64,000 bases of DNA from Gaiellaceae bacterium. GTDB taxonomy: Bacteria > Actinomycetota > Thermoleophilia > Gaiellales > Gaiellaceae. How positions within the stretch are numbered: position 1 is the stretch's first letter; the number at the start of each line of letters is the position of its first letter. The position numbers and the translations under genes were made by a program. This document shows positions 4,258 to 17,306 of this stretch, piece by piece. The DNA lies in NCBI GenBank assembly GCA_026002995.1, contig BPGK01000001.1, positions 1,364,001 through 1,428,000 on the forward strand. Reading direction: 5' to 3'. Below the pieces are notes generated by a model. That model ran no database searches. It saw nothing but the letters and a program-made list of their open reading frames with translations, and was not told the origin of the DNA.

Positions 4258-4309
4258 GGGGTCAGGTCTCTCGTGTTGCATCAGGATGCAACACGAGAGA
4301 CCTGACCCC
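4258..4309. repeat. Perfect 25-bp inverted repeat (palindromic element, family A)
   Basis: The arms are 4258-4282 and 4285-4309, perfectly complementary, with a 2-nt loop (AG). The outer end reads GGGGTCAGGTCTC and the inner end GTGTTGCATC. It lies just downstream of ahcY and could fold into a strong hairpin, but no T-run follows, so a simple intrinsic terminator is not evident. A related, degraded copy lies upstream of smpB (16725-16794). Confidence 0.9.
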
Positions 4310-4416
4310 GTTCCTGCGAGAGACCTGACCCCGTTCCTGCATCCTGATGCAACACGAGAGACCTGACCCCGTTCCTGACCCTGACCCCGTTCCTGACCCA
4401 TGCCAGACCTGACCCC
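4294..4416. repeat. Direct repeats of GACCTGACCCCGTTCCTG running into mtnA
   Basis: A 23-bp unit containing GACCTGACCCCGTTCCTG occurs at 4294-4316, 4317-4339 and 4355-4377. A truncated unit is at 4381-4395, and a further partial (AGACCTGACCCC) at 4405-4416 lies inside the mtnA coding region. The units extend the right arm of the adjacent palindrome. There are no unique spacers of constant size, so this is not a CRISPR array. Confidence 0.88.
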
Positions 4417-16205: not shown

Positions 16206-16610
16206 GTGACCCCCGACGAGCTCCGTGCGATCCCGCTCTTCTCGCGCGCCAGCTACGAGTCCCTCGAGCGGCTCGCGCAGCGTGGGGGCGAGCTCGAGTG
16301 CGAGGCGGGTCAGCTCCTCGCGCTGCACGGCGACCGAGGCTCGGGGATGTTCGTCGTCCTCGAAGGGAACGTCTCGGTCGAGTGGCCGGGCGGCGCGGTC
16401 GAGCTCGGCCCCGGCGCCTTCGTCGGCGAGCTCACCGTTCTCGTGCCCGACGTGCGGCGGGTGGCGCGCGTCCGCGCGGCGACCCCGGTGCGCTGTCTGG
16501 CGATCGCGCGCGAGGATGCGACCGAGCTCATCGAGTCGGAGCCCACCGTCGCGCTCGCGATGCTCCGAGAGCTCGCTCGCAGGCTCGCCACGACGCTCCC
16601 GGGCGACTGA
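16206..16610 (+). CDS. Cyclic-nucleotide-binding domain protein (no DNA-binding domain)
   Basis: This 134-residue protein is a stand-alone cNMP-binding (Crp/Fnr sensor) domain. It has the leading FSRASYESLERLA helix, the beta roll with SGMFVVLEGNVSVEW, and the phosphate-binding-cassette-like GAFVGELTVLVPDVRRVARV. There is no helix-turn-helix or channel segment, so it could regulate a partner protein by contact. The cassette lacks the exact GExALL...R.A sequence, so cAMP binding is uncertain. The GTG follows a TATGAA hexamer by 6 nt. Confidence 0.75.
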   Translation: MTPDELRAIPLFSRASYESLERLAQRGGELECEAGQLLALHGDRGSGMFVVLEGNVSVEWPGGAVELGPGAFVGELTVLVPDVRRVARVRAATPVRCLAIAREDATELIESEPTVALAMLRELARRLATTLPGD

Positions 16611-16641
16611 CCTGCTCGGAGGTGCGCCCCGGTCGACGGGC

Positions 16642-16829
16642 GGGCGACCCAAGGGTCGCCCCTACGGTCTTACCCTGAACGACCTCGTAGGGGCGAGGCT
16701 TGCCCCGCCCGTGTCCTGCAACAGGGGGTCAGGTCTCCCGTGTTGCAGCGATGGCAGGCGCCGAGCACGCGCGCAACGATAGGGACCTGACCCCGGTGTT
16801 GCGCGGTAGAGCGACCCGAGGGTCGCCCC
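16642..16829. repeat. Cluster of palindromic intergenic repeats upstream of smpB
   Basis: At least three hairpin elements are packed here. One is GGGCGACCC-AA-GGGTCGCCC at 16642-16661, with a shorter second copy at 16811-16826. Another is GGGGC-GAGGCTT-GCCCC at 16690-16706. The third is a degraded family-A element, with GGGGTCAGGTC at 16725-16735 and its complement GACCTGACCCC at 16784-16794, related to the palindrome downstream of ahcY. No open reading frame is credible in this 231-bp gap. Confidence 0.85.
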
Positions 16830-16835
16830 TACACT
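16830..16835 (+). promoter_or_regulatory. -10-like element TACACT for smpB, at the edge of a repeat
   Basis: TACACT ends 6 nt before the smpB GTG. It is formed by the last bases of the GGGTCGCCCCTA repeat element. The first copy of that element is also followed by a TANNNT string (TACGGT at 16663-16668). Confidence 0.5.
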
Positions 16836-16841
16836 GCCCCC

Positions 16842-17306
16842 GTGTCGCGGGAGACCGGAACGAAGACGATCGCGGAGAACCGCCGTGCGCGGCGCGACTA
16901 CGACCTGCTCGAGCGCTACGAGGCAGGGATCGCGCTCACCGGCAGCGAGGTGAAGTCCGTGCGCGCGGGGAAGGTGCAGCTCGGCCAGGCGTTCGCCGAC
17001 ATCCGTGGCGGCGAGGCGTGGCTCGTCGGAGCGTCCATCGCCGAGTACGCGCAGGGAGGCCGCTTCGGCCACGAGCCTGACCGCGACCGCAAGCTCCTCC
17101 TCCACCGGCGGGAGATCGACTCGCTCCTCGGCAAGGTGCGCGAGAAGGGTCTCACCCTCGTTCCGACGCGGATGTACCTCCGAGACGGAAAGGTGAAGGT
17201 GGAGATCGCGCTCGCCCGCGGTCGCGAGAAGGCCGACAAGCGTCGCGCTATCGCCGAGCGCGACGCACGTCGCCAGATGGAGCGCGCGCTCAAGCGGCGC
17301 CGCTGA
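16842..17306 (+). CDS. smpB: SsrA-binding protein SmpB
   Basis: SmpB delivers tmRNA to stalled ribosomes. The 154-residue protein shows the family hallmarks: IAENRRARRDYDLLERYEAG, ALTGSEVKSVRAGKVQLGQA, the LLLHRREIDSLLGKV helix, TLVPTRMYLRDGKVKVEIALARG, and a basic tail. Its RNA partner ssrA is in the same window, about 6 kb downstream (23378-23739). The GTG start has no ribosome-binding site and lies 6 nt after TACACT. Confidence 0.96.
   Translation: MSRETGTKTIAENRRARRDYDLLERYEAGIALTGSEVKSVRAGKVQLGQAFADIRGGEAWLVGASIAEYAQGGRFGHEPDRDRKLLLHRREIDSLLGKVREKGLTLVPTRMYLRDGKVKVEIALARGREKADKRRAIAERDARRQMERALKRRR

Follow-up and report, generated by a model that had tools for sequence, protein, structure and literature searches.

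REPs of the family described here probably insert at GTAG/CTAC tetranucleotides that already exist, and upstream of smpB the terminal CTAC of a REP dimer would be that of an older leaderless -10 box. This reading rests on the comparison of sites with and without a REP among related genomes. The locus lies in a window of 64,000 nucleotides, i.e. the whole stretch of DNA analysed, and belongs to a source genome (G000) consisting of one contig (C1) of 2,622,036 bases. Among named records with an smpB, the closest is an actinobacterial MAG (SIRU01000051.1, 84% identity), and several other near ones are labelled Thermoleophilia.

The region upstream of smpB

Before smpB lies, after a solo Z-form REP, an inverted dimer of GTAG-tagged REPs (Y...Z) that encloses a TIR element (Table 1). 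The initial annotation had described three palindrome families; the hairpins and the degraded palindrome are indeed present, but the families are only two, since the GGGCGACCC/GGGTCGCCC hairpins (16642-16661 and 16811-16828) and the GGGGC...GCCCC hairpin (16687-16711) are the Z and Y forms of one REP family, the other family being the TIR. The degraded copy of the ahcY-mtnA palindrome was correctly recognised: its arms are 77% complementary, versus the perfect arms of the copy at 4258-4370, and outer GCAACA/TGTTGC arms extend to 16718 and 16802. Equally accurate was the observation that the last hairpin supplies a TACACT near the smpB start; it continues into CCCCTACACT, 6 nt before the GTG at 16842, and the CTAC of the right-half Z REP (16829-16832) is itself the CTAC of the smpB -10. 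The solo Z REP runs into TACGGT on the + strand, as had also been seen, and there no gene start lies within 10 nt.

Table 1. Repeats, genes and putative promoter element in the window (positions within the 64,000 nucleotides).
Feature	Position	Strand	Remarks
Well preserved TIR (GGGGTCAGGTC) palindrome	4258..4370	.	arms 33 nt, 100% complementary; GGGTCAGGTC family
Upstream co-directional ORF, 134 aa	16206..16610	+	cyclic-nucleotide-binding-like by eye only
Solo Z-form REP GTAGGGGCGACCCTTGGGTCGCCC	16642..16665	-	GTAG at 16665 end; 0 mismatches to family
Y-form REP, left half of inverted dimer	16687..16710	+	GTAG at 16687; 1 mismatch
Degraded TIR element inside REP dimer	arms 16725-16746 / 16773-16794	.	
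Z-form REP, right half of inverted dimer	16809..16832	-	1 mismatch
Inferred smpB -10 TACACT	16830..16835	+	found without REP in four congeners
smpB	16842..17306	+	GTG start, 6 nt after TACACT; PF01668 E 1.4e-57; putatively leaderless

The 134-aa ORF, co-directional with smpB, ends 32 nt upstream of the first REP hairpin, and its placement is kept in several congeners. The predicted folding of the 221-nt region beats 200/200 dinucleotide shuffles (z -4.5); an Rfam scan of 16500-16950 gave two chance-level matches only, far below gathering scores.

The REP and TIR families and their transposase genes

Z and Y hairpins differ in stem form but belong to a single GTAG-tagged REP family. A repeat search over the whole window yielded mainly codon-composition repeats, and the bare 9-mer GTAGGGGCG, which occurs 74 times against 70 in the reversed control, was rejected as an enrichment test. 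Conversely, the full 24-nt hairpins, at up to 3 mismatches, gave 34 matches for the Z-form and 45 for the Y-form in the source genome, and none in either reversed control. The genome-wide count that the initial annotation had proposed thus revealed a dispersed family, with 77 distinct copies spread over the contig and mostly intergenic. Inverted dimers with GTAG outside are found at 16687-16832 and at many other loci; at C1:717469-718390, REP dimers follow one another in a tandem array every 189 bp, their flanks being nearly identical. GTAG lies directly beside the short palindrome and has been kept intact in 59 of the 67 copies, out of 77, whose flanks were read, so that the opposite strand offers TAC in almost every copy. 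Collapsing 9 of these 59 edges, whose flank is shared with another, leaves 50 distinct flanks.

The TANNNT motif that had been placed at the repeat edge is therefore real in its first three letters; its closing T is not. T occupies the third outside position in 7/50 distinct flanks of the source genome, and in 27/140 edges after pooling with congeners, against a background of 16.9% (p=0.43); the pool joins the 50 edges of the source genome to 90 congener edges picked by an exact pattern, which also drops flanks whose last position is A. With T at background, TANNNT is no part of the repeat. A promoter-carrying mobile repeat would conserve the -10 within itself, whereas the T is found in those 27 edges only; this, together with the occurrence of the same smpB -10 in four REP-free congeners, speaks against the suggestion that the repeat carries a ready-made promoter.

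A REP-associated tyrosine transposase, for which a search had also been suggested, is encoded by a RAYT-type Y1_Tnp gene (RAYT-A) at C1:1976899-1977366(-), with the motif PNHVHV and a Pfam Y1_Tnp score of 22.7 bits, just below the cut-off of 23. Y and Z copies flank the gene on both sides, and it is the cognate RAYT gene of the REP family in the source genome. A further Y copy, at 1977093, is read in frame within RAYT-A, where it separates the HUH motif from the C-terminal part. The G001 homologue (G001:C135, L246) is without this copy, and in that of G006 a REP edge is found at the aligned position. RAYT-A is found in 3/11 genus genomes (G000, G006, G001), and G004 has 25 REP edges with no RAYT-A match; thus, present activity is uncertain.

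Three further Y1_Tnp genes of the source genome exceed the Pfam cut-off. The one at C1:495.2-496.0 kb has GGGTCAGGTC on both sides, that at 1287.5 kb is preceded by one GGGTCAGGTC at 263 nt from the match, and the closest GGGTCAGGTC to the third, among the matches listed, is 2.3 kb off. This inverted-repeat family counts 165 copies in the genome, versus 2 in the control. In 17/40 REP clusters, including the one at 16687-16832 of the window, a GGGTCAGGTC lies 24-69 bp away; for the remaining 23 the distance exceeds 1.8 kb, 10 of these having unfetched flanks. Linkers between the two families recur, which shows that composite REP-GGGTCAGGTC units exist; such clusters appear as a composite of two transposase systems. 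Fusion of REPs to other stem-loops is described for pseudomonads (PMC3733652).

Sites with and without a REP

The smpB start was compared in nine genus genomes, G001 and G008 being without an smpB match. CTACACT is present 6-7 nt before the start in 6/9: it is abutted by a REP in the source genome (Z) and in G006 (Y), and stands without a REP in G002, G003, G007 and G010. In G004 a Y REP ends in CTACCGC, while in G005 and G009 the box is absent and the start lies just past the upstream stop. Among 19 other family members, in counts that leave out L120 and L131 (start not read), CTACAAT is found in 9/19 and some TANNNT near the start, judged by eye, in 15/19; no REP was seen at the smpB start in these 19. 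Since four REP-free congeners have the same -10 with near-identical spacing, the smpB -10 appears to be older than the repeat; its position 6-7 nt before the start and its conservation in relatives suggest that smpB transcription is leaderless. In a DNA tree of smpB and phoH, G006 pairs with G007 (support 0.999), one with the REP and the other without, so the REP state at smpB varies between sisters. The presence of Z in the source genome and of Y in G006 suggests at least two separate insertions at this single tetranucleotide. The second REP junction is hidden by divergence, the intergenic DNA of the compared species being too different.

CTACACT also stands at a REP edge ahead of the start of other genes, namely ispG, moaDE and a cofC-like gene in G004, phoH in G009, a thiolase in G002 and metHF in G000, the names being putative assignments from the protein sequences; at two CTACACT edges (G004:C53 and G002:C6) the hairpins are weak. 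The filled/empty comparison at these starts covered smpB, phoH, ispG, moaDE and metHF; smpB, phoH and ispG had been selected for an exact -10 match. The 16 phoH rows comprise one REP (G009), two hairpin-like sites (the second G005 copy and G004), 11 empty sites with CTACACT and two empty sites without CTAC; with CTACACT in 11/13 hairpin-free genomes, phoH agrees with smpB. G005, a MAG of 58% completeness, has two phoH copies (G005:C205 and G005:C249), either a duplicate or a mixed bin, and a hairpin at one -10 only. For ispG, where the REP sits at CTACACT in G004, CTAC occurs in the -10 of 6/10 REP-free relatives, and the comparison at moaDE in G004 is ambiguous. At metHF of the source genome the REP lies at CTACACT, and CTAC is found there in 0/11 relatives, which have other -10-like boxes instead (TAGAGT, TGCAAT). 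Across the 11 genus genomes there are 68 CTACACT-N6-start sites, mostly without a REP; CTACACT thus belongs to the common -10 boxes of the genus. Taken at the level of -10 boxes, filled and empty sites point to a tetranucleotide that was in place before the REP.

The same tetranucleotide is met at stop codons. By rough, GC3-based gene calls, which also underlie the register counts, the enrichment count of the source genome and that for CTACACT followed by a start, all given below, 13 distinct copies of the source genome have a GTAG whose TAG ends a gene-like ORF in frame; this placement was known earlier for GTAG REPs in general (PMC3733652). At one 3' end a Y REP is found at the same AAGTAG in four species, and at another in two AAGTAG species, the three empty relatives having GTAG, ATAG or TGA. 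At the site orthologous to position 2021760 of the source genome, where four congeners have a Y REP at the stop codon, L168 (G007:C155) has another hairpin, GGGCGGGCATGCCCGCCC, next to the GTAGTAG of its stop codon.

That REPs seek promoters is unsupported when all intergenic CTAC is taken as reference: CTACNNT followed by a start is not clearly enriched at REP edges, with 11/140 versus 15/331 (p=0.18), and with 3/49 versus 15/331 for the source genome only. For CTACACT followed by a start the figures are 8/140 REP edges versus 1/331 (p=3.5e-4), the two sets deriving from different genomes. In the unselected set of the source genome, 8/67 copies face a gene-like start at most 160 nt away, and three of these eight are in exact -10 register, with starts 9, 9 and 12 nt after CTAC.

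Proposed insertion at existing tetranucleotides and its alternatives

From this comparative pattern we infer an insertion chemistry. REPs would be inserted by a RAYT system next to GTAG/CTAC tetranucleotides: the guide would be the GTAG that adjoins the donor hairpin, and the target the complementary CTAC, presumably recognised by pairing; the target would be cut between the C and the T of CTAC, and the REP unit joined to it. The target would keep its own TAC after such a cut, and so the -10 box would survive the insertion. GTAG stop codons and the -10 boxes of leaderless promoters may thus represent natural landing sites that outlast the event. The proposed chemistry agrees with what is published for other TnpAREP enzymes, namely a GTAG guide and cleavage between C and T, and with the Marinomonas enzyme, whose guide was shown to control the cut (PMC8266576).

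The same pattern could arise by survivorship, if REPs had no tetranucleotide preference and brought their own CTAC, promoter hits persisting only where it substitutes for the CTAC of a -10. Such an origin is in line with the nuclease literature, which counts GTAG within the REP (PMC8266576), and with the choice of our best loci by exact match; we nevertheless consider it unlikely, given that three of the eight gene-facing copies stand in exact register (about 0.2 would under an even spread, by rough gene calls), that the 75 nt before the phoH and ispG starts showed no REP in any other position, and that different REP forms occupy one smpB tetranucleotide in G006 and G000. Rather less probable is that the REP edge donates the TAC of a new -10, later completed to TANNNT by mutation. 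At smpB and phoH the -10 exists without a REP, and the closing T remains at background over the 140 edges, although TAC is on offer from every intact copy; metHF of the source genome, with TACACT 9 nt before its start and relatives without CTAC, seems to fit donation better than targeting. Finally, the hairpins might chiefly serve the upstream gene, as RNA or DNA structures in 3' end protection or termination, the position at the -10 being incidental. REPs located 3' of genes act in this way (PMC3733652) and the co-directional ORF ends close by, but the exact register at -10 boxes is left unexplained, which makes this explanation very improbable as the main one.

Insertion at an existing tetranucleotide is thus the reading that we prefer, and it bears on the nature of the tag. 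The chances are about even that GTAG is a target chosen by pairing with the GTAG guide of the donor, inherited at each site, and not cargo of the mobile unit. If so, CTACNNT promoters and GTAG stops would be self-preserving landing sites, hence the location of REPs at gene boundaries; their long-noted placement at stop codons would be an effect of targeting, and hairpins would end up directly upstream of the leaderless promoters of housekeeping genes. Conserved -10 boxes may also serve as markers for filled/empty comparison where the other intergenic DNA is too diverged. The spread and site choice of REPs are termed unresolved or poorly understood in passages of PMC3116915 and PMC8266576.

With regard to known systems, the TIR family resembles the TIRtron/TIRYT repeats, which have the motif GGGGWSAS (Di Nocera 2013): GGGGTCAG fits this motif, copies adjoin Y1_Tnp genes and pair as palindromes, and inverted repeats flank the gene at C1:495.2-496.0 kb as in a TIRYT; unlike in those repeats, the 165 copies here are closely tied to GTAG REPs (17/40 clusters, 24-69 bp). 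The proposed targeting is similar to that of IS200/IS605 elements (IS608), where a tetranucleotide 5' of a hairpin acts as guide in an HUH single-strand chemistry (PMC8266576), whereas here IS ends are absent and the GTAG-CTAC pairing is putative. The closest likeness is to the GTAG REPs, REPINs and BIMEs with their RAYT (TnpAREP), which share a short perfect stem next to GTAG and closed by a 2-nt loop, the arrangement of copies in inverted (head-head) dimers and tandem arrays, their dispersal over intergenic DNA, TAG stops at GTAG and a RAYT gene flanked by repeats (PMC3733652, PMC2817692). The present family differs in its uncultured actinobacterial lineage, in its stems (GGGCGACCC/GGGCGAGGC) and in the filled/empty -10 sites that point to an older tetranucleotide; a literature search, with most subscription papers outside its reach, found no report of empty sites already bearing it. 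By its tag, copy number, inverted dimers and flanked RAYT gene it belongs to the GTAG REPs/REPINs, with putative mobilisation by the RAYT.
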